Assembly: GCA_030655755.1 (NCBI GenBank)
Contig: JAUSOQ010000055.1
Location: forward strand, 1 to 34,934
Reading direction: 5' to 3'
DNA: 34,934 nucleotides
From: Coriobacteriia bacterium
GTDB lineage: Bacteria; Actinomycetota; Coriobacteriia; Anaerosomatales; Anaerosomataceae
A program made the translations under genes and the position numbers. Shown piece by piece: positions 1,664 through 34,542 of the stretch; position 1 is the stretch's first letter; each line of letters starts with the position of its first letter. The notes under the pieces are model-generated. The model did no database searches, was not told the origin of the DNA, and was given only the letters and a program-made list of their open reading frames with translations.

Positions 1664-2844
1664 ACGGATGCCTTCCCGAGGGCCCGGTTACGGACGATGA
1701 TACGCATGTAGGTCTGGACTAGGTAGCCGTCCGCGTTGTCGGCCACGTAGAAGGTGCACTTAGGGGGGCGATCGTTCACCAGCAGGGTGGGGCCGGTGTT
1801 CACCTTCCCGCCGTTCGACTCGGTCCCATCTGGATTGACCTGACGGGCGTTCACATACCGCTTCGTGGGCCGCACCTCAAACTCATCCCTGCCCCGCGTC
1901 CAGCCCAAGATTCCGAACTGCTCGGGGTTGTACTTGTCCAAGAAGGTGATGGGGACGCCCATGTTGCCCTCAAAGTCGTAGGGGGTGTCGGCGTACCTGG
2001 ACACCTCGATCGCGTCGTAGTTGTCGTAGTGGGGAAACTCCGACGGCGTATACCGCTTGTACAAGGTAATGCCCTCGTGCCGCTTGGTGGTGTCCAGATT
2101 GGTGAACCAGTTGATGTTACCCATGGAGAAGTACTTGATTCCGTCTTCCACCTTGATACGCGACTCGGTGGTGATGTTGTAGTCCTCGGGAACGCGAAAC
2201 CACTTCGTGCCGCCGTTGTCGTAACCGAGCCAGACACGGTCCTCCTTGATCAGCTTGAAAATCTCGCTGTAGGTGATCGCGTTCTGGTTGCCGAGAATGA
2301 GGAACAGCTTGTCGTGTTCGACGAGTTGGGCGACATACTCACGGAACAGCGAGAACGGTGGATTGGTGACCACGACGTCGGCCTCGCCAAGCAGTGCGAT
2401 GCACTCTGGAGAGCGAAAGTCGCCGTCGCCGTCAAGGAGGGTCAGGACGTTCGGCTCTTGTCGGATTAGGTGCTCGACGTCGGACAGGTCGAATGCTCCG
2501 TCGCCGTCCGCGTCAGGAACCTCCACTATCTCAACCTTGTATGCGGGCTGTGGAGGCGTGTCTTCAGGCAGCCATTCGATGCCGAGCGGGGACAGTTGTT
2601 CGCCCGCTATAGGTGATCCCGAGTAGCAGGTTGTGATCAGCTTCTTCAATCCGAGATGATTGAAATTCATGGCGAAGTACTTGAAGAAGTTGCTCTCATA
2701 CGGGTCGTCGCAGTTGCAGAAGACGACCTTGCCACGGAACTGGTCCTTGTAACGTCGCAGTTCCTTCTCGATGTCCACGAGCTGTGTGTAGAACTCGTCG
2801 TTCTTCGCCCTGTTCGCCCGGATCAAGGCTTCTTTACCCGCCAC
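1660..2844 (-). CDS. EcoRI-family adenine-specific DNA methyltransferase
   Basis: The 394 residues begin at a GTG. The N-terminal half matches the M.EcoRI-type family: NDEFYTQ (15-21), FCNCDDPYESNFFKYF (42-57), and the catalytic N6-adenine motif IV as TNPPFSLF (160-167). Such enzymes transfer a methyl group from S-adenosylmethionine to adenine in a short DNA target. The protein is longer than M.EcoRI because of its C-terminal half. No EcoRI-like endonuclease is present. The next gene, overlapping by 4 bases, is a DUF262-HNH nuclease. The start overlaps a small membrane-protein gene (2834-2995), making a three-gene overlapping operon. The family call is firm; the recognition sequence is unknown. 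Confidence 0.9.
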   Translation of the reverse strand: MAGKEALIRANRAKNDEFYTQLVDIEKELRRYKDQFRGKVVFCNCDDPYESNFFKYFAMNFNHLGLKKLITTCYSGSPIAGEQLSPLGIEWLPEDTPPQPAYKVEIVEVPDADGDGAFDLSDVEHLIRQEPNVLTLLDGDGDFRSPECIALLGEADVVVTNPPFSLFREYVAQLVEHDKLFLILGNQNAITYSEIFKLIKEDRVWLGYDNGGTKWFRVPEDYNITTESRIKVEDGIKYFSMGNINWFTNLDTTKRHEGITLYKRYTPSEFPHYDNYDAIEVSRYADTPYDFEGNMGVPITFLDKYNPEQFGILGWTRGRDEFEVRPTKRYVNARQVNPDGTESNGGKVNTGPTLLVNDRPPKCTFYVADNADGYLVQTYMRIIVRNRALGKASV

Positions 2845-2995
2845 TGTGCGAACCTTTGTCCTCTGGAGTTCTTGTGGGAGTGGGATGAGGCGCCTTGGAT
2901 CCCAGCACGAAAGCCCCGGTGACCATCGTCAACCCGACGACACCGACAATGACGAGTGGAACCTCGAGAAGCGGCAAAGAGAGTAACTCTGTCAC
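2834..2995 (-). CDS. Small single-pass membrane protein upstream of the methyltransferase
   Basis: An open frame from GTG (2995-2993) to TAA (2836-2834) gives 53 residues. It starts MTELLSLPLLEVPLVIVG, has one hydrophobic segment (about residues 4-32), and ends in a Pro/Thr/Ser-rich polar tail. A purine-rich GAGGGGG lies about 10 bases before the GTG. Its end overlaps the first codons of the methyltransferase in another frame, so it may be co-translated with it. No family is recognised. A membrane role (anchor, holin-like or sensor) is only inference. Against it, the gene is short and could be a chance open frame. Confidence 0.5.
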   Translation of the reverse strand: MTELLSLPLLEVPLVIVGVVGLTMVTGAFVLGSKAPHPTPTRTPEDKGSHSGG

Positions 2996-3020
2996 AGTCG
3001 GTGTGCCCCCTCAGTGCTGT

Positions 3021-3104
3021 GCCTAACGTGTTTGCGCATCAGCTGCGCGCCGATGCCCCCTCGTTCAGTCTAGCGCTTGCCGCGTCTGCTGTTGCTGGTT
3101 AGAC
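3021..3104 (-). other. attC-like integron recombination site 1
   Basis: Read on the minus strand, this 84-bp stretch starts GTCTAAC and ends GTTAGGC, matching the RYYYAAC and GTTRRRY core boxes of integron attC sites. Its inner arms are partly complementary. It shares the stretch CTAACGTGTTTGCGC with the second site at 3269-3353. It closes a small cassette of about 248 bp. The pairing is weaker than in site 2. Confidence 0.55.
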
Positions 3105-3116
3105 GCGACCGTCTGA

Positions 3117-3203
3117 CTAAACCGGAATCCGTGTGGGGACAATGCCGTACTTGGTGAGCACTCTCTCGAACTCGTCTAGCGCGACTGCCTCGCCGAAGTT
3201 CAT
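3117..3203 (-). CDS. Possible 28-residue ORF in a small gene cassette
   Basis: ATG at 3203 preceded by GAGGG gives a 28-residue peptide, starting MNFGEAVALDEF and ending in VPTRIPV. It fills the cassette-sized space between the two attC-like sites and stops just before attC site 1, as cassette genes usually do. The frame is open further upstream (to 3320) but that part runs through attC site 2. No family is recognised, and it may be non-coding. Confidence 0.3.
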   Translation of the reverse strand: MNFGEAVALDEFERVLTKYGIVPTRIPV

Positions 3204-3268
3204 AGAGCCCTCATCTTCGAGTGGCAGCGTGTGGTTGCGAGGATGGACAAGTGACCCCCAAGGTCTGC

Positions 3269-3353
3269 GTCTAACGTGTTTGCGCTTCACTCGCGCGCTT
3301 GCGCTCCCATTATGCGACATCTGGCACGCGTCGAGTGGAAGCGCGGGTTAGGC
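3269..3353 (-). other. attC-like integron recombination site 2
   Basis: Read on the minus strand, the 85 bp begin GCCTAAC and end GTTAGAC, the two attC core boxes. The inner arms pair well (GCGCTTCCACTCG against CGCGAGTGAAGCGC) with an unpaired extra base, as expected for the folded bottom strand recognised by integron integrases. The stop codon of the upstream TIR-like gene lies inside the first core box, a common arrangement in gene cassettes. Confidence 0.68.
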
Positions 3354-4175
3354 ACCTTCACCTGCAGGTTCGGGTTCTACTGCGGTTTCTGCTGCTGGTC
3401 GGTTCCACGCTGCAGTCGGCAGGGCAACACTGAGACTGGAGGCGACCACGTAGCCGAGTTTGGTCCATTTGTACACGGGCTGACCGTCATCTCCGATTGC
3501 GCACACCCAAATCAGCCGCTTGTCTAGAAGCCGCGGCAGCGCTGTCGTGGCTGTGAAGTTGACCCGCCCGCTATCGGAGAAGCCGAATCCTGCTCCAGCA
3601 TCGAACTTGGCGAAGTCCTCCAGAACCCGTATCTCCTCTGCGGTGAGCGTTGCTATGGCCAGCTTGACTCGAGCGTCTGCGACGAAGTCTCTGGCTTCGA
3701 GGCGGCTCTCGATTTCTGCCCGCAGCTGCTCCTGCGCTACTTCCGGATCAGTGAAGTCAATGTACATGTGTGGAATCGTGCTGACGTCGAAAAGGAACTT
3801 GTGCTTGTCATCCCTAATCAGCAGTACTTCAGTTGACTGGCGCGCCGCCACGGCAAGACCGACTTCATACATCACGTTCCCATTGCGATAGGGTTCGGCG
3901 GTCTTGGAGTCGTAGCCGACGCTCGATACGTCCGCGAGGAACATCTGGCAGTGTGCGATCCCGTCGATGATTTCAGTGAGTATCGAATCTCCAGTCTTGG
4001 AAAGATCCACGCGGAATGGTGATAGCGAGACGCCATCAACAGAGACGGCACGAATCGCGGGGTCAATAACATCAGTGAAACGGTTCTCGTATGTGTCCGA
4101 GAAACTCATGGCAACGAACACCTGCGGTCGAAAGTCCGGTCGCCAGAATGTCTCCAGGAAGAGATTCGGATACAC
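3348..4175 (-). CDS. TIR / nucleoside deoxyribosyltransferase-like protein with C-terminal winged-helix-like region
   Basis: The likely start is GTG at 4175, preceded by GGGGGG; a TTG at 4202 is possible but lies in the cassette core site. The 275-residue product has FVAMSF (20-25), then IDGIAHCQMFLADVSS and a YEVGLAVAA stretch. This is the layout of the nucleotide-binding, TIR-like family related to nucleoside 2-deoxyribosyltransferases. The last 90 residues (from about LTAEEIRVLEDF) look like a winged-helix domain. Relatives occur as immune effectors that act on nucleotides or NAD+, but no substrate can be assigned. It is carried as a cassette: bounded by GTTAGGC at 4194-4200 upstream, with attC site 2 at its stop codon. 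Confidence 0.7.
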   Translation of the reverse strand: MYPNLFLETFWRPDFRPQVFVAMSFSDTYENRFTDVIDPAIRAVSVDGVSLSPFRVDLSKTGDSILTEIIDGIAHCQMFLADVSSVGYDSKTAEPYRNGNVMYEVGLAVAARQSTEVLLIRDDKHKFLFDVSTIPHMYIDFTDPEVAQEQLRAEIESRLEARDFVADARVKLAIATLTAEEIRVLEDFAKFDAGAGFGFSDSGRVNFTATTALPRLLDKRLIWVCAIGDDGQPVYKWTKLGYVVASSLSVALPTAAWNRPAAETAVEPEPAGEGA

Positions 4176-4507
4176 GATGCCCCCCAACTGTGTGCCTAAC
4201 AATGATTCTGCTGTCAGGATACGCGCATATCACGGTAGCCTACTCAGGCAAAACCCACCAGCGAACACGCCATCGCGACCCCCTTGTGCTCTTGTGTTTC
4301 GGGTCGTGTCCGGAATCTTCTGTAAGTAGCGTGGCCGCCTGAGATGACGAGGGTGGCCACCGCCCTCCATGATGGTTGGTGTTCGAGGCCGAGTACCGAT
4401 GTAACGCAGATGGGCGACGTTGCCCGCTCGCTTCAGCGCAAGAGATACTGACCACGCGCCTCATGGTATCGTGGCGGTGTTGGGGGAGTCGATTCGAGGG
4501 GGTTGCT
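4176..4507. other. Intergenic stretch with a lone integron core site
   Basis: At 4194-4200 the minus strand reads GTTAGGC, the same cassette-boundary core as in the two attC-like sites. No paired core box follows within 150 bases, so it may be the fossil of an attI or a secondary insertion point. The rest shows no gene. The purine-rich GAGGGGG at 4496-4502 is the ribosome binding site of the next gene. Confidence 0.45.
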
Positions 4508-5416
4508 GTGACTGATTCCGTAGTTCCCGGGATGCCTGTGCCGGGCCCTGAGCCTATAGGCGCCGAGGCGAAGAGGGGCTGGTTCACCAGCCTGCCGCTG
4601 TGGGGGAAGATCCTCTTCGTTCTAGTGTGGCCGGTTTCCCTGACATACGCGGTCGTCGTGATGTGGAAGGATAAGCGATTCCCGATTGCCGCCAGGGTCG
4701 CCTTGACGGCCCTCGCCGTGATCGTCATCGCTGTCGGCTTTGCGGGCGGCGGCGACGAGTCCGCAACGACAGCGGGCACCACCAAGAAGGCTGACACCAG
4801 TGCGGCTACTGTCTCAGATTCGACCGTCGCGGATGTCGCAGAGCCCGAACCCAAGCCAGAACCCGAGCCAGAACCGGAGCCCGAGCCGACCATCCAGGAG
4901 CTTGCGGACAGCGCCTATGGCGTGTTCGACGTCATAGAGAAGACGGGTACGGGGGACGACGTCATACCGCTGCCTGCGGGCGTATCCTGCGTCATCGTCG
5001 CCACCCATTCCGGCTCCTCGAACTTCGTGCTCAGGTCTTTGGACTCCGGGAACCAGATGGTCGACCTGCTAGTGAACGAGATCGGTGCCTACTCTGGGTC
5101 CACGTTCTGCGCCGAAGGCGTGTCGCTTCAGGTGGAAGCCAGCGGAAGCTGGACGATCAGGATCGCGCCGATCTCCACGGTGCCGGTGATGGCTACTGAG
5201 CCGCTCTCTAGTAAGGGCGACGCCGTCATGCTGTACGACGGCGGAACGGCCATATGGGACATCACGCACACCGGCTCGAGCAACTTCGTCGTCAAGAACG
5301 GTGACGGACTGCTTGTCAACGAGATCGGGGACTACAGCGGCGCGGTGCCCGTATCCGGTGGGCCTTACATAGTGACCATCAGCGCTGACGGCGCATGGAC
5401 GATCACGATTCGGTAG
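4508..5416 (+). CDS. Two-pass membrane protein with Pro-Glu linker and duplicated extracellular beta-type domain
   Basis: The start is GTG 4508, six bases after GAGGGGG; the upstream extension to 4376 has no such signal. The 302-residue product has two hydrophobic segments (about residues 33-55 and 65-83) and a linker of alternating Pro and Glu/Lys (about 117-134). Two related domains follow. The first contains THSGSSNFVL and LLVNEIGAYSGS, the second THTGSSNFVV and LLVNEIGDYSGA, ending in DGAWTITI. This repeat is common in membrane-anchored actinobacterial proteins, but I know no function for it. The gene after it starts 21 bases downstream, also encodes a membrane protein, and probably shares its mRNA. 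Confidence 0.8.
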   Translation: MTDSVVPGMPVPGPEPIGAEAKRGWFTSLPLWGKILFVLVWPVSLTYAVVVMWKDKRFPIAARVALTALAVIVIAVGFAGGGDESATTAGTTKKADTSAATVSDSTVADVAEPEPKPEPEPEPEPEPTIQELADSAYGVFDVIEKTGTGDDVIPLPAGVSCVIVATHSGSSNFVLRSLDSGNQMVDLLVNEIGAYSGSTFCAEGVSLQVEASGSWTIRIAPISTVPVMATEPLSSKGDAVMLYDGGTAIWDITHTGSSNFVVKNGDGLLVNEIGDYSGAVPVSGGPYIVTISADGAWTITIR

Positions 5417-9358: not shown

Positions 9359-9814
9359 CTAGGTTGGGTCTTTTGTGGCCACTACCGCGCGGCGGAGCGT
9401 CGCAATCGCGCGTACCCGCTCGCCGGTGCTCCCTGCATCAAAGGCCTGCAGGAGTGCGGAAGGGTCGTTCGTGGCGAGCCCGCCGGGACGGAGTTCGGCC
9501 GCGATCGCCGCGAACGTGTCGGTGGAGAGTGCCGGGAGGGTGGCTGCGATCTCTGCGCGCCACGTTGCCGCGCGCACGTCTTCTTCGGTTCCCATCATGA
9601 TCGTCTCGAGATCGATCCCAAGCGCTTCTGCCAGTTTCGCAACGGTGCGGATGAGCGGGGTCACGCGCATACACTCGAAATCATAGACGGTTTTTTGAGC
9701 GAGCTCGGATCGGCGGGCGAGCTCGTGGAGCCCCCATCCGCGAGCTTCGCGCCCTGCTTTGGCGTTGCGCGCCAGCCGCTCGGTGCTCAATGGCGTTTTG
9801 CGTTTTGTGGTCAT
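9359..9814 (-). CDS. XRE-family helix-turn-helix regulator at the end of the transfer operon
   Basis: The 151 residues contain a classic XRE HTH at about 14-70 (ARNAKAGREARGWGLHELAR, then AQKTVYDFECMRVTPLIRT and LAEALGIDLETI). The C-terminal 75 residues are rich in Ala and Leu and may mediate dimerisation. AGGAGA precedes the ATG. It starts 13 bases after the NlpC/P60 gene and is the last gene of the minus-strand operon. That position suggests feedback control of transfer genes, but no operator was identified. Confidence 0.8.
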   Translation of the reverse strand: MTTKRKTPLSTERLARNAKAGREARGWGLHELARRSELAQKTVYDFECMRVTPLIRTVAKLAEALGIDLETIMMGTEEDVRAATWRAEIAATLPALSTDTFAAIAAELRPGGLATNDPSALLQAFDAGSTGERVRAIATLRRAVVATKDPT

Positions 9815-23467: not shown

Positions 23468-24014
23468 CCCCCTCGCCCCGGCGCGGCCTCCCCTCCGCCC
23501 CGGCGCCGCTCGCGGCCTCACGGCCGCGAGGATATGACCAGCCACCCCGCCGCCGGCGCGGTGGCTTCATTTTCCCAGCCCGCCCGACCGGTCGACCTGC
23601 CCACCGCATGGATCGCCGTGGACGGCTCGACCGGTCGGGCACACCCGTCCTCCTGCACACAGGCAACACACCTGTGCACAGTAGGATCGATCCGAGCTTA
23701 CCTATCGGGCTCGGATCTCGGCGCTCCCGACGTCGGTGGTCTCGGCGTTCAGGCAGTGCGGGTTCATACGCGGCCCCGCCCAAGTCGCCCAAGACCACGA
23801 CTTGGGGAGAGAAGAGAGAAGGCAGGATAAGACCTGATGCTCTTCGCGCATCAGGCAAGGGCTACGCATCCCCGGCGGTGCCGGTGAGCAGGAGCAATAG
23901 ACCCGTAAGAGGAACACAAAGTGAGCATCTGGACGGGTGCGCGCTGATGCTCTATGCTCCGAGCATGGGAACCAGGCCCCGACCGACGACCGAACATGCG
24001 ACAGGAGGCCACTC
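23468..24014. other. Inverted-repeat-rich region, candidate oriT
   Basis: There is no gene in 547 bases. Perfect inverted repeats follow one another: CTCGCGGCC/GGCCGCGAG (23509-23530), GCCCGACCGGTCGA/TCGACCGGTCGGGC (23582-23640), CACAGG/CCTGTG (23658-23676), GATCCGAGC/GCTCGGATC (23689-23717), CCCAAGTCG/CGACTTGGG (23779-23806) and CCTGATGC/GCATCAGG (23833-23855). They lie directly before the RHH accessory gene and relaxase, where oriT normally is. The nick site cannot be placed. Confidence 0.6.
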
Positions 24015-24398
24015 GTGAAGCGCTTTATGATCCGGTTGGACGAGGACACCCACGAGCTTCTGGCGAAGGTCGCGGCGGCCAAGGACGTGCCGCCTGCGGC
24101 CCTTGCCCGCGAGTACGTCGAGTTCTGTTTGACGAGCGACGCGTACGACTCACGCAAAGGAACGCTCGAGGAGATGATCCGGCTCGCCACGCGTGACGCA
24201 TCCAAGAGGACGGCCGACGCCATGCGGGCGATCGCGGCGAAGACGGCGATCGCGGCGGCGACCTCGACGTTCCTCTCCCTCGAGGTCTTGGCTCGCGAGC
24301 ACGACTACGCCCCGGCCGAGCTCCAGACGCTCTACGACGAGTGCCGTGGTAAGGGCGTGGCGTTCGTGCGCCAGACCGTAGCGGAGGTCGGCGAATAG
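24015..24398 (+). CDS. Ribbon-helix-helix relaxosome accessory protein (MobC-like)
   Basis: GTG 24015 follows AGGAGG; an upstream frame to 23937 lacks this. The 127 residues begin KRFMIRLDEDTHELLAKVAA, a ribbon-helix-helix start (strand, two helices), and continue with a long Ala-rich helical part (SKRTADAMRAIAAKTA). Small RHH proteins before a relaxase gene bind oriT and help nicking. The inverted-repeat-rich region just upstream supports this. The stop lies just before the 44-bp repeat at 24402. Confidence 0.75.
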   Translation: MKRFMIRLDEDTHELLAKVAAAKDVPPAALAREYVEFCLTSDAYDSRKGTLEEMIRLATRDASKRTADAMRAIAAKTAIAAATSTFLSLEVLAREHDYAPAELQTLYDECRGKGVAFVRQTVAEVGE

Positions 24399-24401
24399 CG
24401 A

Positions 24402-24445
24402 GCGCTTAACGCTCGTTCAGGAAAGGGGGCCACCGTGGCCCCCTT
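24402..24445. repeat. 44-bp direct repeat copy A, with 19-bp palindrome
   Basis: Identical to 25990-26033. It includes the palindrome GGGGGCCACCGTGGCCCCC (24425-24443). The first relaxase codons (GTG GCC CCC) are part of this copy, and the second copy spans the relaxase stop codon, so the two frame the gene. Confidence 0.9.
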
Positions 24446-25997
24446 GGAGATTACGGCGAGGGTGAGTCCAGAAGTGACCGTGAGCAGCAACATCGTCATG
24501 AAGCTCAGCTTCAAGCCGGCGGGGTCAGAAGCCCATGCGGGCAACGTCGCCCATCTGCGTTACATCGGTACTCGGCCTGGGGTCGATACGGAGGTCACAG
24601 ACGCCGCGCTTGAACGCGCGGAGCTCAGCGACCTCTCAGACGATGAGGACTATCTGCGTTACATCGGTGAGCGCCCTGGCGTAGTGCGTGAGACAGCCGA
24701 AGGACCGGTGCTCCACGGACTTTTCGGTGCGTCCGGTGTGGCCGATGTCTCCCGAGTGCGGCAAGAGATCGGTGGTCTTGAACTCTCCCCCGCATATCGC
24801 ATGATCCTCTCGGTGCGGGAAGAGACGGCAGCGGCCGTCGGTCTTACCGACAAGGCCGCCTGGGAGATCTTAGTCTGTGAGCAGGCACCGACGTTCGCGC
24901 GTGGGTTGGGGATCCCGCTCCAGCGTCTCGGGTGGGTGGCTGCTCTTCACCAGGCCGCCGGTCACCCACACGTGCACCTGATCGCGTGGGACCGTGCGGA
25001 TAAGCCAAGAGGGCGTGACGTGGTGGAGAAACAGGCGCTCGTGGCCATGCGTGAAGAGCTCACGCGCGAGCTATGGAGGCCGGTCACCACCGAACTTGGT
25101 GCAGAGAAGGGTGGGATCCGCGACGCGTTGGTGCGCGGAACGCGGACCGAGCTCGCCGTCCTCACTGACCTCATGGGCTGGGAGAGGGGCACCGGGGCGC
25201 CGCTCTTGGACCGTCCGGCGACGCTGCCGATGCGCTCGGCTGAGGACCTGACGGCGATCGCGGCGGGTCTTGAGGAAGTCGCCTCGACGCTGCCCGGACA
25301 CGGCCGGCTGGTCTTGGCTTATATGCCGACCGAGACTAAAGATGCGGTCTCCCGTGTCGTGGACCTTTTGCTCGACGACCCGGCGAGTAGGGAGGCCGCC
25401 GATCGTTTCACAGCGATCGCGGCGGAGCTCGCAGGTCACCAGGCGCCCGCGCCCGAGAAGGTAGAGGCGGCTGCGGATCGGGCTTCCGCAGACCTTGGCC
25501 GAAGGGTGGGGCAGAACGTACTCGTTGCGGCCGAAGGTCTCGTGCAGGACCGTCTGCATGAGCGGGCGTGTCGGGCTGCCCCGGTGTTGCTGTCTCGTGG
25601 CGCGGATCCCGCACTCTGTCTGAGCGATCGCATCCGGGCGGCACGTGCGTGCGGCACTCTCGGAGTCTCTGAGACATCGGTCGTTGACTCAGCCACGAAT
25701 CGGCACGCAGGACCGGACGGACGGACGGTGATCGCTGCGGCCTGGGGCGAGGGGGCGGCACGGGAGCGTCTGGACGCAGGTGACGTAGAAGCCCTGGAAC
25801 GAGCGACGGGAGGAGACCGGCCTGCGCCGGTCATGGCCGGTCTCGGGACGGCCGCGAGGCTGGCCAGGCAGGTCTACCGGGACCTCGATTGCGCTCACGC
25901 TGACAGCCGGTCTATTGTCCGCGCGAGGCGCGCGCGTGTACGTCCCCGCGATCGAGGGATCTGGCACGACGCTGAGCCTGGGCACGACCGCGCTTAA
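24435..25997 (+). CDS. MobL-family conjugative relaxase
   Basis: The listed GTG start follows GGAAAGG, but GTG 24462 is an alternative that better fits the family start. The longest form has 520 residues. IVMKLSFKPAG, then LRYIGTRPGV (41-50) and again YLRYIGERPGV (73-83), open the MobL domain. The three-His motif is HQAAGHPHVHLI (172-183), binding the metal for nicking. Arg/Glu-rich helices follow to about 250. The C-terminal half is less conserved, helical and rich in Ala, Arg and Glu. The relaxase nicks oriT, stays on the 5' end and is exported via VirD4. No helicase or primase domain was recognised. Confidence 0.87.
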   Translation: MAPLEITARVSPEVTVSSNIVMKLSFKPAGSEAHAGNVAHLRYIGTRPGVDTEVTDAALERAELSDLSDDEDYLRYIGERPGVVRETAEGPVLHGLFGASGVADVSRVRQEIGGLELSPAYRMILSVREETAAAVGLTDKAAWEILVCEQAPTFARGLGIPLQRLGWVAALHQAAGHPHVHLIAWDRADKPRGRDVVEKQALVAMREELTRELWRPVTTELGAEKGGIRDALVRGTRTELAVLTDLMGWERGTGAPLLDRPATLPMRSAEDLTAIAAGLEEVASTLPGHGRLVLAYMPTETKDAVSRVVDLLLDDPASREAADRFTAIAAELAGHQAPAPEKVEAAADRASADLGRRVGQNVLVAAEGLVQDRLHERACRAAPVLLSRGADPALCLSDRIRAARACGTLGVSETSVVDSATNRHAGPDGRTVIAAAWGEGAARERLDAGDVEALERATGGDRPAPVMAGLGTAARLARQVYRDLDCAHADSRSIVRARRARVRPRDRGIWHDAEPGHDRA

Positions 25998-26033
25998 CGC
26001 TCGTTCAGGAAAGGGGGCCACCGTGGCCCCCTT
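25990..26033. repeat. 44-bp direct repeat copy B, with 19-bp palindrome
   Basis: Same as 24402-24445. It contains the relaxase stop codon (25995-25997) and the palindrome at 26013-26031, which is flanked by AAA and TTT and so could also work as a terminator. It lies about 100 bases before parA. Confidence 0.9.
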
Positions 26034-26064
26034 TAAACTGCTTGCCTATTTCTATTTCTAGGTA

Positions 26065-26093
26065 TTGTAGAGTATTACGCGTTGTGCTAGCAT
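26065..26093 (+). promoter_or_regulatory. Promoter of the parA operon
   Basis: TTGTAG (26065-26070) and TAGCAT (26088-26093), 17 bases apart, lie in an AT-rich patch 40 bases before parA, which has a strong GGAGGAGG. Confidence 0.5.
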
Positions 26094-26132
26094 ATACACA
26101 AAAGGGGATGAAGCTTAGTGGAGGAGGATCCC

Positions 26133-26903
26133 ATGAGTGTACAAGTGGTCGCGTTCGTGAACCACAAAGGTGGCGTAGGCAAGACCACGTCTGTCGCCAA
26201 CATCGGAGCCGCGCTCGGGCGCGAAGGGAAGCGGGTCCTCTTGGTGGACCTGGACCCGCAGGCGTATCTCTCGAGCGCCGTGGGGATCCAGGTGGGCGAG
26301 GATGCCCCGAGCGTCTACGAGGTTCTGACGGGGGTGGTTGCGGCCGAGGGGGCCACCGTGGCCCCCTCGGAGTTCTACGACGTGTTGCCTTCGACACTCG
26401 CTCTCTCGCGACTCGAAGTCGAGTTCGGCGCGCACGCGGGGCGGGATCTCTTGCTCCGGCGCGCGCTCGAGCTCCCGCGAGAGGCCTACGATTGGATCCT
26501 GATCGATTGTCCGCCGTCGCTCGGGATGCTCATGTTGAACGCGCTCGCGGCGGCGACCGCCTACGTGGTGCCGGTCCAGACCGAGTACTTCGCACTCAGG
26601 GGCCTTGGGACACTCGAAGAGATCATCGAACAGGCGCACGACTACCTGAATTCAGCCCTTGTCCCGCTTGGGGTGCTTCCCACCCTCTACGATGGCCGGA
26701 AGAACCAACATTCAGATACGCTCGCCGAACTCAAGGAATCCTATGGCGAGCTCGTCTTGCCGAGTGTACGGATGAATGTCGCGCTTGCCGACGCGCAGAA
26801 GGCGGGCCGCGACATCTTCGCCTTCCGGGCGAACGCACACGGGGCCGAAGACTACGCGGCCGTGGCGCGCGAGCTCCTAGTGCGAGCCGAGGGGGGTGCG
26901 TGA
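26133..26903 (+). CDS. parA: ParA partition ATPase
   Basis: ATG 26133 follows GGAGGAGG. The 256 residues carry the deviant Walker A KGGVGKTT (11-18), the switch LVDLDPQAYLS and the Walker B strand ILIDCPPSLG. It belongs to the short type Ib/Soj-like class without an N-terminal HTH. ParA uses ATP to move plasmid copies bound by ParB. Residues about 73-79 (GATVAPS) are encoded by a copy of the 19-bp palindrome, which looks inserted between strands. The gene overlaps parB by one base (TGATG). Confidence 0.94.
   Translation: MSVQVVAFVNHKGGVGKTTSVANIGAALGREGKRVLLVDLDPQAYLSSAVGIQVGEDAPSVYEVLTGVVAAEGATVAPSEFYDVLPSTLALSRLEVEFGAHAGRDLLLRRALELPREAYDWILIDCPPSLGMLMLNALAAATAYVVPVQTEYFALRGLGTLEEIIEQAHDYLNSALVPLGVLPTLYDGRKNQHSDTLAELKESYGELVLPSVRMNVALADAQKAGRDIFAFRANAHGAEDYAAVARELLVRAEGGA
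26346..26368. repeat. Palindrome copy inside parA (candidate parS)
   Basis: GGGGGCCACCGTGGCCCCC with GA and TC outside it extends the arms to 11 bp. It is in frame and encodes GATVAPS. The same 19-bp core is at 24425, 26013 and 34062. Confidence 0.65.
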
Positions 26904-27865
26904 TGACGGCGGAGCTACCCAAGCGCACCCGGAAGGGCCTTGACGGTTTCGGTAAGAACGCGAGTCCGGAACAGCGTGAAGCGCGGCAGCGCGCGGCGCA
27001 TGAGGCCGTGATGCCGTTCCTCGTCCAAGGGAGGGACAACGTCGCGGCTGAGCTCCGGATCGACGAGATCGAGCCGAGTCCGAACAACTTCTTTGCGATG
27101 GAAGACATCGACGCGCTCGCGGCGGATATCGCCGAAGTCGGGCTCCTGCACCCGCTCGTGGTCAGGCCTCTCTCCGAGGATCCGTTGACCCATTACGAGC
27201 TTATTTCGGGAGAGCGCCGCTGGCGCGCCCTCCGCACGCTCGTTGACGCTGGTGACAAGCGCTTCGAGCGTGTCGGCGTGATGATTCGCCGGATCACCGA
27301 CGACCAGGCCGAGCATGCGCTGATCTCTGCGAACATGGAGGCGCGCGATCTTACTGTCGCCGTACGCATCGAAGCGATCGCGCGGATGCGGGTGATCGTT
27401 GGGCGAGAGAGGGCGGCGGGGACCGTCGAGGGGAAGACCGCCGATCTGCTCGCGACCCGGCTTGGGATGGCGCCGCGGCAAATCAAACGCTACGAGGCGA
27501 TCGCGAAGGCGGATGTCGGCATTATAGAGGCCGTGGACGCCGGGACGATCACCCTCCGTTCCGGTGTCGCTCTCGCAGGTAGGCCCGCCGATGTGCAGGC
27601 TCGCGCGCTCACTGAGCTCACGGCGGCAGAGAAGAAGCACACTGAGGACGAGGCGGCAGAGGTCATCGAGCGGGCAGCGCGTCCGCATGTCGAACGACAC
27701 CCGGCAGCAGGGCCCAGCGAGAAGGCCGTCAAGGCGCTCCGAGGTGCGGTCCGTGCTCTTGAGCGGATCCAACCATTCACGCTGGATGTGGAGTACCGTG
27801 ACGAGGCGCTGGCTCTGGCTGAGCGGGTCCTTGATCTCGTTCGGCCGATGGAGGATGGCCAATGA
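26903..27865 (+). CDS. parB: ParB-family centromere-binding protein
   Basis: The 320 residues have a ParB N-terminal domain (IDEIEPSPNNFF at about 52-63, then LHPLVVRPLS and the ELISGERRWRALR motif near 106), the nucleotide-binding part of this CTPase family. A central HTH region (TADLLATRLGMAPRQIKRYE) and a C-terminal helical part follow. ParB binds parS and spreads. It is coupled to parA by a one-base overlap and to the next gene by four bases. The C-terminus (about 270-315) may be the dimer domain. The repeated palindromes nearby are the best binding-site candidates. Confidence 0.92.
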   Translation: MTAELPKRTRKGLDGFGKNASPEQREARQRAAHEAVMPFLVQGRDNVAAELRIDEIEPSPNNFFAMEDIDALAADIAEVGLLHPLVVRPLSEDPLTHYELISGERRWRALRTLVDAGDKRFERVGVMIRRITDDQAEHALISANMEARDLTVAVRIEAIARMRVIVGRERAAGTVEGKTADLLATRLGMAPRQIKRYEAIAKADVGIIEAVDAGTITLRSGVALAGRPADVQARALTELTAAEKKHTEDEAAEVIERAARPHVERHPAAGPSEKAVKALRGAVRALERIQPFTLDVEYRDEALALAERVLDLVRPMEDGQ

Positions 27866-28950
27866 AGGCGTTCCTGCTCTGTGACCCGCTCTCATGCGGT
27901 GCCGTGTCTGCTGCGGTCGAGGGCGCAGCAGGTACCGTCCTCGCTGCCCGTGAGGGTGCAGACGCGGTTGCGTTGACCGCTGCACTCACAGAGGCCGCAG
28001 CGACCTCCTGTGACCTCGTCGTGATCGAGCCCGGTGCGTGGGACGCCGAGACCTACGAGATCGAAGACGCGGTACGGCGTCTGCGGACGTCGCGCGAGGC
28101 CGCGCGGATCATCGTCCTTCTTCCGGAAGGGACCGAGCCTGACGCCTTCACCACCGAGCTCGTAGGTATGGGCATCTATGATCTCGTGAGTGTTCCGCCG
28201 GCAGAGATCGGGTCCCGGCTGTCTGCGGTGATCGCCGGACCTGCCACCTATGCGGCTGCGTCGCGGTGGCAGGTCCGCAAGGCAGCGCCTGCGTCTCGGA
28301 GGCGTGATGCGCGCCCTTTTCGTCCTTCTGTGGCCGCAGCCACAGAGACGATCGTGGAGCGCATTGTGGGGTGTGCGGCGATCGCTGTCGCTGGTGTCGG
28401 TCCGCGCGTGGGTACGACACACCTGGTCGTCTCGGTAGCGCGGTTCCTTGCGCATGAGGGCCACGCGGTAGCCTGCGTGCTCATGAATGAGGCCCACTGG
28501 AGGGCGATTGCGGGCGGATACGAGGGCGTCGCGATCGACGAGACGCGTTCGCGCTTCGAGCTCGGGGGCGTCGCCTACTATCTCGGAGCCCCGAGCCACG
28601 TGGCCGACTATCACTATGTCGTCCTCGACTTCGGTGTCTATGAACCAACGCATGCGATCGAGTTCAAGCGATCTCCCGTGCGCTTGCTCGTGTCCGGGTC
28701 GGCCGAGTGGGATCTGGCAGAGACCACCGAGCTCTTGCGCGCGGATCCGGCGACGCTCGGGTATACGGTCTGCTTTGCACTGACGTCTCCAGACCTCTTC
28801 GCCTACATCGCCGAGAACATGGGCGGGGCACGTGCCGTCGCCATTCCCTACAACCCGGAGTGGGGGCAGGTAGAGGGGGTAGCGTCGGTCATGGCGGAGC
28901 TCGTCGGAGACGTGCTGCCCCGCGTCACCCGCAAGGGTGGGCGCTCATGA
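27862..28950 (+). CDS. CpaE/TadZ-like protein with degenerate ParA-type ATPase fold
   Basis: The 362 residues start at the ATG overlapping the parB stop. The first 125 residues have a receiver-like pattern (SCDLVVIEPGAW, then ARIIVLLPEG and GIYDLVSVPP). Residues about 172 onward follow a ParA/MinD fold: AIAVAGVGPRVGTTHLVVSV sits where Walker A (KGGVGKTT) belongs, then YHYVVLDFGVYE at the Walker B place. The Lys residues of Walker A are gone (PRVGTTH), so ATP hydrolysis is doubtful. CpaE/TadZ proteins position secretion or pilus machines at the cell pole. Here it may link partition to the surface proteins encoded downstream. Confidence 0.72.
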   Translation: MKAFLLCDPLSCGAVSAAVEGAAGTVLAAREGADAVALTAALTEAAATSCDLVVIEPGAWDAETYEIEDAVRRLRTSREAARIIVLLPEGTEPDAFTTELVGMGIYDLVSVPPAEIGSRLSAVIAGPATYAAASRWQVRKAAPASRRRDARPFRPSVAAATETIVERIVGCAAIAVAGVGPRVGTTHLVVSVARFLAHEGHAVACVLMNEAHWRAIAGGYEGVAIDETRSRFELGGVAYYLGAPSHVADYHYVVLDFGVYEPTHAIEFKRSPVRLLVSGSAEWDLAETTELLRADPATLGYTVCFALTSPDLFAYIAENMGGARAVAIPYNPEWGQVEGVASVMAELVGDVLPRVTRKGGRS

Positions 28951-29234
28951 CCAGGCGAGCCCCCACGCTGCTCCGCGCGATCGAGCTTGAGGAGACCGCG
29001 CGGGCGGCAGAGACCGCGCGGGCGGAGAGAGGGGCGGCGCGGAAGGCCGCCAAGAAACGGTTCAGGAAACATCCGGTCGTTCGCGCGGGAGGCGCGGTCG
29101 GGTGGTGGCTGGGGACGCTTGCAGCGACGCTCGTCGCGATCGTGGTGCTCAATCTCGTGTTCAACCCGGACAGCGAGTTCAGCCGGCAGGTGGTCGGGTT
29201 CTTCGAGAGTCTACGGAATGGAGGCTTGTGGTGA
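28947..29234 (+). CDS. Small single-pass membrane protein
   Basis: The 95 residues start at the ATG overlapping the previous stop by four bases. A basic, Ala/Arg/Glu-rich cytoplasmic helix (about 8-42) is followed by one hydrophobic segment (about 51-71, LGTLAATLVAIVVLNLVF) and a short outside tail ending in FFESLRNGGLW. It could connect the cytoplasmic CpaE-like protein to the surface proteins, but no family is recognised. Confidence 0.7.
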   Translation: MTRRAPTLLRAIELEETARAAETARAERGAARKAAKKRFRKHPVVRAGGAVGWWLGTLAATLVAIVVLNLVFNPDSEFSRQVVGFFESLRNGGLW

Positions 29235-30127
29235 GACGCAAATATGTGAGGGGGGCATTCACCGCTCTGCTTGCAGCCGCGCTTGTAGCGCCGGCAGCAG
29301 CGTATGCGGCGGCGGCTGTCACACGGAGCGTGGAGGGCGTGGTCCAGACCGATGACACCCTTTTCCCCGCAGAGGTCGAAGAAGAGGGGGTCACCTACAA
29401 GCTCGGCGAGATCGAGTGGGTCGAGCGGATCGTGACGGACCGAACGGTCCGTCATTCGGTGGCCTATGATTTCGGCGCACAAATCGGTGAAGTCGAGATC
29501 CCGGAGACGTGCGCCACCACCTACTACGATGCCGCCAGCAACACGACCGTGCGGGCGGTACTCACCTTCGCGCGGGTGCAGAAGGCCGCAGCGACCATTG
29601 AGGGCGAACGTGAACTGTTCACTCACGTCTCGTATGACCCCAAAGCCTACGAGCTTGTAGACGCCCTCTGGTTGCCCTACGGCGCTCCCGCACCGTTGTG
29701 CAGCGGCGTCGAAGTGGAAGCTCCCCTTTTGGATGCGCTCCACTACGACCCTACCGTCTACCACGTTACGTCGTCAGAGTGGATCAGCCAAGCGACGCTT
29801 AACGGGGACAGGACCGAGCGGGTAGCAGAATACACCGTCTCAAGGCGGGCGGTGCAGGAGGAGGTTGTCTACTCAGGAATGGTCGCGCTCCCCGATGTGC
29901 TGGTCTTCGACGGCACGGCGACCTACGCACCACTGTCGTTGCCCGAGCGCGCCGAGCGCGCTGTCAGAGCAGCCGCCACGGTCGCGACGTCAGACCCGTG
30001 GTCTATCCTCCCCTGGGCGGCGGCCGGTCTTGCGGCGGGCACCGCCCTGTTGGGCGCGATCGTGTTCTTCCGGCGTCGGAAGCGGCGCTCAGACGACGAG
30101 GACGAGGAGGACGAGCATGAAGACTAG
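29231..30127 (+). CDS. Secreted, membrane-anchored surface protein
   Basis: GTG 29231 (or 29228) overlaps the previous stop. The 298 residues have a signal peptide (about 1-27, ending AAAYAAA). A beta-rich extracellular part with many Tyr, Thr and Val residues follows (about 30-245, including SVEGVVQTDDTLFPAEVEE). Then come one hydrophobic segment (about 257-275) and a cytoplasmic tail of basic then acidic residues (RRRKRRSDDEDEEDE). No LPxTG site is present. I recognise no named family. Its last 11 bases overlap the CAP-domain gene. Confidence 0.72.
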   Translation: MRRKYVRGAFTALLAAALVAPAAAYAAAAVTRSVEGVVQTDDTLFPAEVEEEGVTYKLGEIEWVERIVTDRTVRHSVAYDFGAQIGEVEIPETCATTYYDAASNTTVRAVLTFARVQKAAATIEGERELFTHVSYDPKAYELVDALWLPYGAPAPLCSGVEVEAPLLDALHYDPTVYHVTSSEWISQATLNGDRTERVAEYTVSRRAVQEEVVYSGMVALPDVLVFDGTATYAPLSLPERAERAVRAAATVATSDPWSILPWAAAGLAAGTALLGAIVFFRRRKRRSDDEDEEDEHED

Positions 30128-30881
30128 GTTGCTCCTCACACGATTAGCGATAGTGGTCTTCGTGGTGGCCCCGGCACTCGCCTGTGCGGCGTATGCAGGA
30201 ACCGGGATAGTGCGAGCTGCGCATGAGACGCAGACCGCACAGGTCGAACTCGCCACGGCCCGAGCAGAAGGTGAGCTCGTGGCGACGCAGGCGATGGCCG
30301 CGCGTAAAGCAGAAGAAGAGATCGCGCGGCAGAAGGCCGCAAAGGAAAGGGCCGCCCGAGAAGCAGAGATCGAGGCTGCGGCCGTCAAGGCCGCAGAAGA
30401 AGAAGCTGCTCGCCTTGCTGCCGAAGAAGTGGCGCTCGTAGCAGACGCAGGGACGGCGGCCACGATCTCCGGGACGTCAGGGACCTCTACGGGAGGCGGC
30501 ACGTCGTCTCCCGCTCCGGCACCGGCCCCCGCTCCGGCACCCGAGAGTCCGGTCGTGGTCACCTCCTACAATGTGGCGATCGTGCGCGCGATCAACCCGA
30601 ATGCCACCTATGACAGTGCGCTTTCTGCCTCATGTGCTGCTCATGCGAAGAAGATGGCCCTTGCGGGGTCGATCTTTCACTCAGGAATTGATGGGCGTTT
30701 TGAGAGTGTTGGTCAGATGGGCGGGATCGGCTCCGGAGCCCTCCTTGGGTGGACCGCAGAAATCATCGGTGGGTTCCATGCCGGTCACGTGTCTCAGCTC
30801 AGAACCGAATGCACGCGTGTCGGTGTCGGAGTCGTGACATATAAAGGTGTTTTGTGGACAGTCGCACAGGGGGTCTTGTGA
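30117..30881 (+). CDS. Surface CAP (SCP/PR1-like) domain protein with coiled coil
   Basis: The 254 residues start inside the end of the previous gene. A signal or anchor segment (about 8-28) leads to a long Ala/Glu/Arg-rich coiled coil (about 36-107), a Ser/Gly and then Pro/Ala linker (about 115-143), and a CAP-like domain (about 150-254). That domain carries ASCAAHAKKMALAGSIFHSG, ESVGQMGG, GGFHAGHVSQL and the closing TYKGVLWTVAQGV. CAP domains occur in secreted proteins of diverse function. The domain is a short version. A role in adhesion or envelope interaction during mating is inference. It overlaps the next gene by one base. Confidence 0.75.
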   Translation: MKTRLLLTRLAIVVFVVAPALACAAYAGTGIVRAAHETQTAQVELATARAEGELVATQAMAARKAEEEIARQKAAKERAAREAEIEAAAVKAAEEEAARLAAEEVALVADAGTAATISGTSGTSTGGGTSSPAPAPAPAPAPESPVVVTSYNVAIVRAINPNATYDSALSASCAAHAKKMALAGSIFHSGIDGRFESVGQMGGIGSGALLGWTAEIIGGFHAGHVSQLRTECTRVGVGVVTYKGVLWTVAQGVL

Positions 30882-33800
30882 TGAGAGTCTTCCACTCGAA
30901 GCGCGCGGTTGCACTAGTGCTCGCGTTCGTCCTGGCGTTCGCAGGACCGGCGGCGGCGGTCGCCGAGACGATCACGACCGGGGCCGCCGGGACTTCCTAC
31001 TACGAGTACCACAACCTCTCAGGGGGCGTGTGGAGCGATCTCCTGACCCCACCACATTGGACCGGCAGCGGCAACGTCGCCTTCTGCCTGGAGCAGACGG
31101 CGGACTATCCGCTCGGCGAGACGTATGGCGTGTTCAATCCCTTGAGTGTGTTCAGTACCCGGACACGCAATGGTCTACAGGCGATTACTTTCTACGGCTA
31201 TCCCTATAGCACCGGCGGTTTCTCGGCGGTCCAAGCTCGCTATGCGACCGCGAATGCAATCCGAGCGTGGCTGAGCGAGTCGGCAGGGGTCGGGTACGCG
31301 TTCATGAATCTCTCGGGCTACGACCCCAACAACTCGGCGACTTGGACGAACGTCAGGCCGGTCTCATCGTCTTACAATGCACTCTTCCGGTGGACGCTCA
31401 GCCTCGTCGCATATGCCCGTGCGCAGCAATACCCGGCACACGCGGTCACGAGTTCGCCGAACCCGGTGACGCTCGTCGCCGATCCACCGTATGCCCACCT
31501 CGTGGGCAGCACGACCGTCGTTTTCAACAACCTGAACGGCTCTTATACGTACAGCGTGCCTGCCGGGGTCACAGTGACCGGTTATACCGGCAGCAACGGC
31601 GACGTTCTCACGCTCTCGGTACCGCTCACTCCGGAATGGCTCGGCCAGACCGTGACGCTCACTCTCACGGGCACAGACAGTCGCGTTCCCGCGAACCTCT
31701 ACTGGTACTCGCCTAGCTATAACAGCTCGCTCCAACGATTCCTCGTGCCCACCAGTCTCGCATTCGCTCCTGCTGCGGTAGGTCTGATAACCGTCGGTAC
31801 CGGTGAGGGGGCGATAGACCTCCGCAAGACCGATGAATTGGACGGCTCTGCCGTTGCCGGTGCGCTCTTCCAGCTCAACTGGGGGACCATAGAGGTCGCC
31901 CAAGGCACCACCGACGCGAGCGGGCAGCTGCTGTTCGACGAGATCGCGCCGGGCACCTACACCATCTTCGAACTCGCCGCGCCAGCCGGTTACCTTCTGG
32001 ATCCGACGGTACACACCGTCGTCGTCCCTGACGGCCCGGCGGTCCTGCTCCGGCTGACGAACGAACCGGCCATGAGACCGGTCGAGGTCATCAAGACCGG
32101 CGAGGCGGGCGAAGCACTCGCCGGGGCCGTCTTTGAGGTCCGCGATAGTGGTGGGGCCCTCATGGACACACTCACGACTGACGCCACAGGGCGCGCCCGA
32201 AGCATCCCGCTAGACTTTGGCAACTACACCCTCGTCGAGATCGTGGCCCCGGTAGGGCACGTGCTCGATCCGACGCCGCACCCCTTCACCACCGCGCGGA
32301 CGAGCCCGGCGGTGGTGGTAGTAGCTCTCGACAACGAGAGGATCACCGGCCGAGTCCGGATCATCAAGGACAGCGACGGTGTCGCCGGGGCCCTGCTCGA
32401 AGGTGCCACCTTCGAGGTCTTCGCCGATGACGGCTCGACCGTCCCCGTCTGTGAGCTCGTGACCGATGAGAACGGAGAGGCCACGAGCGACCTGCTCGAG
32501 TACGGCGGTTACTATGCCGTCGAGACTGTGGCACCTATCGGCCACGTCTTGGATCCGACGCCGCACCCCTTCGTGATCCACGAGCAGGACGAGCTCGTCA
32601 CGCTCGAGATCACCGACCCGATCATCAGGGGTCGGGTCCACATCATCAAGCGAAGCGCCGGGGTCGATAACCCAGGACTAGAGGGTGCCGTCTATCAGGT
32701 CTTCCGATCCGCAGACGCGTCCCCGGCGGCGTCTTTCGAGCCGACGGTGACACTCGGTCCCGTCTGTGAGCTCGTGACCGATGAGAACGGGGAGGCCACG
32801 AGCGACCTGCTCGAGTACGGTGTCTACTACGCCGTCGAAACGATCGCCCCGGTCGGCCACGGTCTCGATGAGAGCCATCGGTATTTCGAGGTCCGTGAGG
32901 ACGATGCCGAAATCCTTTTCGAGCTTGAGGATTCCTTGCTCAAGATCCACCACGGTGGCGTGCAAGTCCGTTACCGCAACGTATGGGACGGCACCGAGAT
33001 TGCCCATGCGTGGGGCTATAACGCGGAGGTGGGCAGTGCGTATCTGCCGTGGCTGGCGGTGCTCAACTCACCGGGGTACACGACCAGAGACCCCTACCTG
33101 CCGTGGACCGCGCCGGGAGCCACCGCCGCTCAGGCGGCAGGAAGGCCCATCGACGGTTTCATCTACGTTTCTGCCGACTATCCGGCGGAAACCGAGCTGA
33201 TCGACGGCAAACTCACCGTCACCTACTGGTACAAGCGCACCATTGATGGTAGCTGGTCGCTGGTAGGCACCGGCGATGATGGACTGTCCACACTCACCCC
33301 GCAGGTCCGAGAGACGTTCGGGCTACTCTCCGATTCCGAGCTCTACGCGCGGTTGCAGGATGCTAAGACCGTCAATCCCGACGTCGTGGGCTACCTATCG
33401 GTGCCCGGCACCGATCTGCACGAGCCTGTGGTGCAGACCACCGACAACCTCACCTACCTCAGCACCGGCGCACTGGGCGCGCCGGACCCGCGCGGGGCGA
33501 TCATGATGGACTACCGTTCTGATCGTTATGTCGGCTCGCAGAGCCGGATGACGGTCCTTCACGGTCACAACATGCGCGATGATTCGATGTTCGGTCTCCT
33601 GGCCTCCTATGGCGACCCGGACTTCTGGTCCGCGCATCCGTTCATCCAGTACATCGACGCGGCAGGGCGTGGCGGGACGTGGCGAGTGTACTCCGCTCGC
33701 CTGTCCGACGGCGCAGACGATGTCTTCACCTTCCCGACCAGCGTCTCCTACGCCGAACGCGCGCAGGCGTACGCGCACTCCTCCGTCCTCGATCCGGGTT

Positions 33801-33898
33801 TCTTGCCGGATCCGGACGGTCGCACGCTCACACTCTCGACGTGTGCCTATCACGTCGAAGACGGTAAGTTCCTCGTTCACGCGCAGCTCGTCGAATGA
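30881..33898 (+). CDS. Large surface protein: thioester-like domain, four CnaB repeats and C-terminal class B sortase
   Basis: ATG 30881 overlaps the previous stop; the total is 1005 residues. A signal peptide (1-29) leads to a thioester-like domain (about 30-300). Cys69 is in VAFCLEQ, but the usual TQxA is YATANAIRAW, so the Gln is Ala. Four CnaB (SpaA-type) repeats follow at about 309-395, 398-480, 487-580 and 583-690. Repeats 3 and 4 share near-identical DNA (from CELVTDENGEATSDLLEYG), a recent duplication. After a linker (690-800) comes a sortase-B domain (about 810-1005) with His896 in LHGHNM and Cys988 in TLSTCAYH. The expected Arg is Lys996. There is no LPxTG motif and no C-terminal membrane segment. 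Adhesin and sortase in one chain is unusual. Confidence 0.87.
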   Translation: MRVFHSKRAVALVLAFVLAFAGPAAAVAETITTGAAGTSYYEYHNLSGGVWSDLLTPPHWTGSGNVAFCLEQTADYPLGETYGVFNPLSVFSTRTRNGLQAITFYGYPYSTGGFSAVQARYATANAIRAWLSESAGVGYAFMNLSGYDPNNSATWTNVRPVSSSYNALFRWTLSLVAYARAQQYPAHAVTSSPNPVTLVADPPYAHLVGSTTVVFNNLNGSYTYSVPAGVTVTGYTGSNGDVLTLSVPLTPEWLGQTVTLTLTGTDSRVPANLYWYSPSYNSSLQRFLVPTSLAFAPAAVGLITVGTGEGAIDLRKTDELDGSAVAGALFQLNWGTIEVAQGTTDASGQLLFDEIAPGTYTIFELAAPAGYLLDPTVHTVVVPDGPAVLLRLTNEPAMRPVEVIKTGEAGEALAGAVFEVRDSGGALMDTLTTDATGRARSIPLDFGNYTLVEIVAPVGHVLDPTPHPFTTARTSPAVVVVALDNERITGRVRIIKDSDGVAGALLEGATFEVFADDGSTVPVCELVTDENGEATSDLLEYGGYYAVETVAPIGHVLDPTPHPFVIHEQDELVTLEITDPIIRGRVHIIKRSAGVDNPGLEGAVYQVFRSADASPAASFEPTVTLGPVCELVTDENGEATSDLLEYGVYYAVETIAPVGHGLDESHRYFEVREDDAEILFELEDSLLKIHHGGVQVRYRNVWDGTEIAHAWGYNAEVGSAYLPWLAVLNSPGYTTRDPYLPWTAPGATAAQAAGRPIDGFIYVSADYPAETELIDGKLTVTYWYKRTIDGSWSLVGTGDDGLSTLTPQVRETFGLLSDSELYARLQDAKTVNPDVVGYLSVPGTDLHEPVVQTTDNLTYLSTGALGAPDPRGAIMMDYRSDRYVGSQSRMTVLHGHNMRDDSMFGLLASYGDPDFWSAHPFIQYIDAAGRGGTWRVYSARLSDGADDVFTFPTSVSYAERAQAYAHSSVLDPGFLPDPDGRTLTLSTCAYHVEDGKFLVHAQLVE

Positions 33899-34542
33899 GA
33901 CCACAGACGGGTCGGGTGAAGGGCCCTAAGACAGCCCGTAGCGTCGCGGCTCGCCCACAGGGAGAAAGCCTGTGGGCGGGCGCGCGGCTCGCCTGCGCAT
34001 CCGTCCTTGCTCTCGTGCTTGTGCTCTCGTGCGGGTGCGCATGCCACCCGCAGAGCTCGCCGGGGGCCACCGTGGCCCCCTCTGCACCGATGGTGGGCGA
34101 GCTCACGGCGGCCGAGGTCGTTCGCGTCGTGGATGGGGACACCGCTATCGTCGTACTGGGCGATGGGACCGAAGAGCGTGTCCGGTTCATCGGGATCGAC
34201 ACGCCCGAGGACACGAGCGAGGTAGAGGAGGGCGGGCCAGAGGCTACCGCGTATACAACAGCAGCGGTCGAGGGTGTGACGGTGTTCCTCGAGCTTGATG
34301 TCGAAGAACGCGACAAATATGGTCGTCTGCTCGCCTACGTGTGGCTCGAAGAGCCGGCGGATGCAAGCGAGGCTGAGGCTCGCGCGAAGATGCTCAATGC
34401 GCGGATCCTGCTCGATGGGTACGCGCACCTTATGACCATCCCGCCGAACGTCGCCTACGTGGATTACTTGAGAACGTACGAGCGCGAAGCCCGCGAGGCC
34501 TCGGCGGGGTTGTGGGCGCGGAATGGGGACGATGCTTCATGA
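33895..34542 (+). CDS. Secreted or lipid-anchored thermonuclease (SNase family)
   Basis: ATG 33895 overlaps the previous stop by four bases. The 215 residues begin with a basic stretch and a hydrophobic signal (about 26-48) with a possible lipobox around Cys46. Residues about 70-210 form a staphylococcal-nuclease domain: VVRVVDGDTA, RFIGIDTPE with Arg97 and Glu105, and DKYGRLLAYVW with Arg144. This matches the catalytic Arg-Glu-Arg set. It would cut DNA or RNA outside the cell. GATVAPS (about 57-63) is encoded by a copy of the 19-bp palindrome. It follows the large surface protein in the same operon. Confidence 0.88.
   Translation: MRPQTGRVKGPKTARSVAARPQGESLWAGARLACASVLALVLVLSCGCACHPQSSPGATVAPSAPMVGELTAAEVVRVVDGDTAIVVLGDGTEERVRFIGIDTPEDTSEVEEGGPEATAYTTAAVEGVTVFLELDVEERDKYGRLLAYVWLEEPADASEAEARAKMLNARILLDGYAHLMTIPPNVAYVDYLRTYEREAREASAGLWARNGDDAS
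34062..34080. repeat. Palindrome copy inside the nuclease gene (candidate parS)
   Basis: The 19-bp core GGGGGCCACCGTGGCCCCC again, in frame and encoding GATVAP in the spacer between signal segment and catalytic domain. It is about 7.7 kb from the parA copy. Confidence 0.65.

Follow-up and report, generated by a model that had tools for sequence, protein, structure and literature searches.

Why should a single 19-bp palindrome occur four times, twice within genes, on a mobile element that encodes its own ParA and ParB proteins? The window, namely the whole stretch of DNA that was analysed, is a contig of 34,934 nt from a Coriobacteriia bacterium (JAUSOQ010000055.1, assembly GCA_030655755.1), the ends of which share a 111-bp terminal repeat, so that it closes into a circle of 34,823 bp. 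A preliminary description of this DNA had placed the palindrome, GGGGGCCACCGTGGCCCCC, at positions 24425, 26013, 26348 and 34062 and had read it as candidate parS. On the evidence discussed below, it is reasonably probable that the four palindromes are multi-copy parS-type centromere sites for the element's own ParB, and they are treated here as candidates for this role.

The palindrome and its four copies

A motif search returned GGGGGCCACCGTGGCCCCC at exactly these four places on the circle and at no others, in agreement with the earlier coordinates and count; all four copies are on the + strand, where the central base is always C. The sequence had been called an exact palindrome, which holds for the perfect arms, but its form is odd, with 9-bp arms around an unpaired C, 19 bp in all.

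Copy 1 (24423-24445, core 24425-24443) lies between a small gene (23937-24398, + strand), probably a mobilisation accessory gene as judged by position only, and the gene of a MobP3 family relaxase (24480-25997, + strand; NF041499, 174.5 bits, above the cut-off of 150), 37 bp before the GTG start codon of the latter at 24480. Copy 2 (26010-26034, core 26013-26031) is upstream of parA (26133-26903, + strand), as previously stated, with the distance to the ATG at 26133 measured as 101 bp instead of 100. Copy 3 (26344-26370, core 26348-26366) lies within parA, where it covers codons 72-78 and encodes E-GATVAP-S, and copy 4 (34062-34080) lies within the gene of a staphylococcal-nuclease-type protein (33895-34542, + strand; PF00565, with an N-terminal hydrophobic segment), where it encodes GATVAP in the linker N-terminal to the SNase domain. 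The first three copies extend symmetrically, to 23 bp from 24423 with outer letters AA/TT, to 25 bp from 26010 with AAA/TTT, and to a 27-bp perfect odd palindrome from 26344 with CCGA/TCGG; copy 4 is exactly 19 bp, with no symmetrical extension. Because the outer letters differ between the extended copies, the 19 bp represent the common core. On either side of copy 4 are the arms of another inverted repeat of 9 bp, GAGCTCGCC / GGCGAGCTC, in the region 34053-34104, and a stretch of 61 nt around it folds with a z of -4.6.

Dinucleotide shuffles gave 0.04 expected matches to GGGGGCCACCGTGGCCCCC at up to three mismatches, versus the four exact copies observed. The circle has seven palindromes with arms of at least 9 bp; four of these, including the three longest, are copies of GGGGGCCACCGTGGCCCCC, and among the 32 palindromes with arms of at least 6 bp the sole core that occurs more than once is GGCCACNGTGGCC. 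With up to three mismatches allowed, no copy was found outside the circle in the whole 2.13-Mb host assembly, and the palindrome is therefore specific to the circular element. It was likewise absent from all 40 of the relatives searched. Two matches of the 19-mer on viral contigs (L005 and L006) have no parAB in the stretches read, and look like chance.

The partition proteins, the host and the relatives

The genes beside copies 2 and 3 have the composition of a type Ia ParABS system, namely a Walker-type ParA encoded next to a ParB that has a ParB_N/CTPase domain and a helix-turn-helix, and a replicon-specific repeated palindrome near both, here in four copies of which two are at parA. The ParA/MinD-type ATPase carries the KGGVGKTT motif and matches AAA_31 (8.9e-47) and CbiA, and the stop codon of its gene overlaps the start codon of parB (26903-27865, + strand), whose product matches ParB_N (PF02195, 1.3e-13) and has the CTP motif GERRWRA as well as the helix-turn-helix. 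A third gene of the operon (27862-28950, + strand), which has no Pfam match, follows parB in the relatives also. Sequence matches of ParB include Noc (7ol9) and Caulobacter ParB (6t1f), and the best structural matches of its AlphaFold2 model (mean pLDDT 77) are Noc, ParB-parS and KorB at Z 14-16 (7nfu, 6t1f, 8qa9). As modelled, the protein is thus a genuine member of the ParB family, with the canonical fold and of the CTPase type. The ENxQR motif usual in ParB CTPases lacks its Glu here, at about residues 140-150, where the element has Ala (SANMEARDL) and the relatives have Thr (TTNVRQRDL); this replacement may change the hydrolysis of CTP.

On the host chromosome there is a separate parAB, and two exact copies of GTTTCACGTGAAAC lie about 0.9 kb from that parA, on contig C9. 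This canonical chromosomal parS has no match on the element within two mismatches. Chromosomal ParB/parS and Noc/NBS therefore resemble the system of the element in the fold of the protein and in the palindromic nature of the site, whereas the host site itself, GTTTCACGTGAAAC, is not shared. A ParB needs a site and GGGGGCCACCGTGGCCCCC is the sole repeated candidate on the circle, so that parS is reached by elimination; as far as the sequence can tell, the palindrome appears to be the only centromere candidate on the element.

Related elements with consecutive parA, parB and third gene occur in six genomes of the same order. A MobP3-type relaxase precedes the par genes in five of them, those matched on that side, and a SpaA/sortase gene is also present in the one relative with a full gene list. 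The preliminary description had held that parAB-bearing relatives without the palindrome would speak against parS, and to the letter this is the case, as six of six lack it; however, their ParB is only 27-29% identical to that of the element. The recognition helix differs as well (APRQIKRYE in the element, APRTVAYYR in the relatives), so that, if specificity has diverged, another site is to be expected in them, and their lack of the palindrome is a weak result that decides neither for nor against parS. The earlier parS reading is partly supported, with the confinement of the palindrome to the element, its clustering at parA, the CTPase-type ParB, the lack of a canonical parS on the element and the lack of GATVAP conservation in homologues in its favour, and the relatives on the other side of the balance.

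The six syntenic relatives have no repeated palindromes of their own, save a 13-bp core present twice in one of them (L042). Two sequences were considered as their parS and rejected: CACCTGCTCGAGCAGGTG, which decays in three of the six, and TCACCGGCTWAGCCGGTGA, which is single-copy, lies 5' of the relaxase gene and fits an oriT arm. The latter is found at L037:13263-13281, L038:6532-6550, L039:6759-6777 and L041:6812-6830, with a diverged counterpart at 23869-23887 of the window, and it is likely to be an inverted repeat of the oriT used by the MobP3 relaxase. No close relative of ParB was found in the plasmid, viral and genome collections, where tblastn against plasmids gave 27-38% identity at best, and relaxase scans for closer relatives likewise returned none. 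With no close ParB relative, there were no orthologues in which to footprint the palindrome.

Other explanations and the copies inside genes

Among the points against parS, the palindrome has 19 bp versus the usual 14-16 bp of parS, one copy (that at 34062) is about 7.7 kb away from parA, and other DNA-binding proteins of the element could own the site. The palindrome might be the operator of another element-encoded regulator, such as the HTH protein of 9362-9814 or the product of 23937-24398, which would control the relaxase and par operons and for which the intragenic copies would be extra sites. The presence of one copy upstream of the relaxase gene and of one upstream of parA suits such an operator, as do the HTH_3 and HTH_26 proteins encoded on the element. 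Nevertheless, the HTH genes, at which an autoregulator would be expected to act, have no copy nearby, and the copies cluster at parAB: three are within about 1.95 kb and two of these at parA, and the chance that three of four random points fall within 1.94 kb is about 4% for a circle of this size by our own estimate. This alternative would moreover leave ParB without a visible site, as the palindrome is the only repeated one, and we consider it unlikely.

The two coding copies were already described as being in the same frame and as both adding GATVAP to their proteins, and this was borne out, the peptide being (E/P)GATVAPS. Conservation of GATVAPS in orthologues had been named as a point that would count against parS, and it was not observed in either protein. 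In the six syntenic elements ParA is 41-42% identical and reads EAIVPGPE or similarly opposite GATVAPSE, with no indel, and GATVAP is present in none of the nuclease homologues (same order, 45-57% identical) that were aligned across the hypervariable linker. A conserved GATVAP protein motif was thus ruled out as the cause. Given the peptide and the codon usage of the element, the probability of the exact codons is about 9e-4 in parA and about 7e-5 in the nuclease gene, which indicates that the codons shared by the two genes are not a by-product of the shared peptide. Since the peptide is not conserved in the homologues, the constraint appears to act on the DNA and not on the protein, and on this comparison the coding copies look DNA-constrained.

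These copies also bear on the idea that the palindrome is a short repeat multiplied by duplication or recombination (as a REP/RPE-like sequence or through gene conversion), with no bound protein. A 44-bp direct repeat brackets the relaxase gene (24402-24445 and 25990-26033, both on the + strand and 100% identical) and holds copies 1 and 2, which are therefore not independent, so that the number of independent copies is nearer three than four. Copies 1 and 3 are alike beyond the palindrome too, over 33 bp at 91%. Part of the repetition may thus be due to copying, and the like orientation of the central base in all four copies agrees with this. Against spreading, however, are the arms, which are perfect in every copy and extended by different letters in each, and the lack of further copies, intact or decayed, in the host. 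In addition, ParA has no insertion at the site relative to its homologues, so that the palindrome in parA arose by substitution. A REP/RPE insertion element was rejected on the last two grounds, and the broader idea of a spread repeat seems improbable, slightly more so than the operator of another regulator.

That the palindromes are RNA hairpins, acting as transcription terminators or mRNA structures, is very improbable: every copy forms a strong stem-loop (z -2.1 to -4.6) and stop codons shortly precede copies 1 and 2, but the GC stem followed by a T tract that defines an intrinsic terminator occurs nowhere in 23800-27000 (0 terminator-like sites), no T tract is 3' of copy 4, Rfam gave no match, two copies are mid-gene in open genes, and a terminator does not need identical stem and loop.

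Proposed mechanism and known systems

Read as parS, the palindromes would be the centromere of a type Ia partition system on a conjugative circular element. ParB binding, loading, segregation and repression, as we infer them, would involve a ParB dimer that binds the palindrome symmetrically through its helix-turn-helix domain, and that, once bound, loads CTP, closes into a clamp and slides onto the adjoining DNA, after which ParA would move the plasmid covered by ParB. ParB may in addition use the upstream copies to repress the par and relaxase operons, in the KorB-like manner of RK2. A further-reaching proposal, possible yet doubtful at present, is that the palindrome is a shared centromere and silencer, with a single ParB that segregates the element and, by sliding from the copies next to the relaxase gene and within parA, represses its conjugation and par genes. 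The site would then represent a 19-bp odd-centred specificity class undescribed in Coriobacteriia, in parallel with the invariant 25-bp palindrome in parB of other mobile elements of Coriobacteriia. As for a silencer of the KorB/OB type, two copies are upstream of operons, and no consensus promoter was found.

The OB site of KorB is odd-centred, TTTAGCSGCTAAA. The likeness to RK2 consists of a ParB-family clamp protein and of dispersed operator copies 5' of target promoters, whereas the OB sequence is unrelated to GGGGGCCACCGTGGCCCCC and no KorA partner was identified on the element. On RK2, the OB sites are both close to and distant from promoters (PMC11790492). SCP2 of Streptomyces coelicolor is likewise an actinobacterial plasmid with an inverted repeat of similar length within a partition gene: its ParATS system has parS, an inverted repeat of 18 bp, inside parT (PMC12260392). 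ParT, however, is without a CTPase domain, unlike the ParB of the element with its GERRWRA motif, and the SCP2 site is in the gene of the centromere-binding protein, whereas that of the element is in parA, with four copies in total. In the repABC replicons of Alphaproteobacteria some parS copies are within coding sequences (PMC9040568), and the palindromes are repeated in and around the par genes, as on the element, but the consensus, GTTNNNNGCNNNNAAC, has 16 bp with an even centre and is bound by a RepB-type protein, and no repC was seen on the element. Intragenic parS is therefore already known (SCP2 parT, repABC), and the palindrome, taken as parS, is a further example of a known centromere type.

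If ParB binds the palindrome, an actinobacterial conjugative element would have a defined and unusual centromere that is partly inside coding sequence, and the DNA-recognition code of ParB/Noc would gain an extra specificity point. It would also provide a recipe for parS in mobile elements without the chromosomal consensus, namely to look for a replicon-only repeated palindrome beside parAB.

Five of 119 genomes, in another family of the class, have an odd palindrome of 25-31 bp, ACTTGTGCGCAASTTGCGCACAAGT, inside the parB of a mobile element, in one copy each (L043:10096-10126, L044:10243-10267, L045:10153-10177 and L046:10156-10180). Only its centre base varies (C or G, for Leu or Val), in parB genes that are 67-78% identical, near-identical pairs aside; in L048 only its outer arms remain. 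ACTTGTGCGCAASTTGCGCACAAGT is a candidate intragenic parS and, independently of GGGGGCCACCGTGGCCCCC, shows an odd-centred palindrome kept inside a par gene.

Other features of the element and host may be mentioned. A 42-bp perfect inverted repeat joins 24537-24578 to 4386-4427, where part of the sequence that codes for the relaxase N-terminus is present, reversed and 20 kb off. At 572-2844, an EcoRI-type adenine methylase (PF13651) adjoins a GmrSD_N + HNH protein, the two forming a possible restriction-modification pair. A 4.6-kb host contig (L104, G000:C42) with a transposase-like ORF holds, at 2406-3446 and 4011-4205, diverged copies of the window ORF 4376-5416 and of the nuclease C-terminus (86% identical, residues 151-215); judged by these similarities, it is a second, partial relative of the element in the same host.
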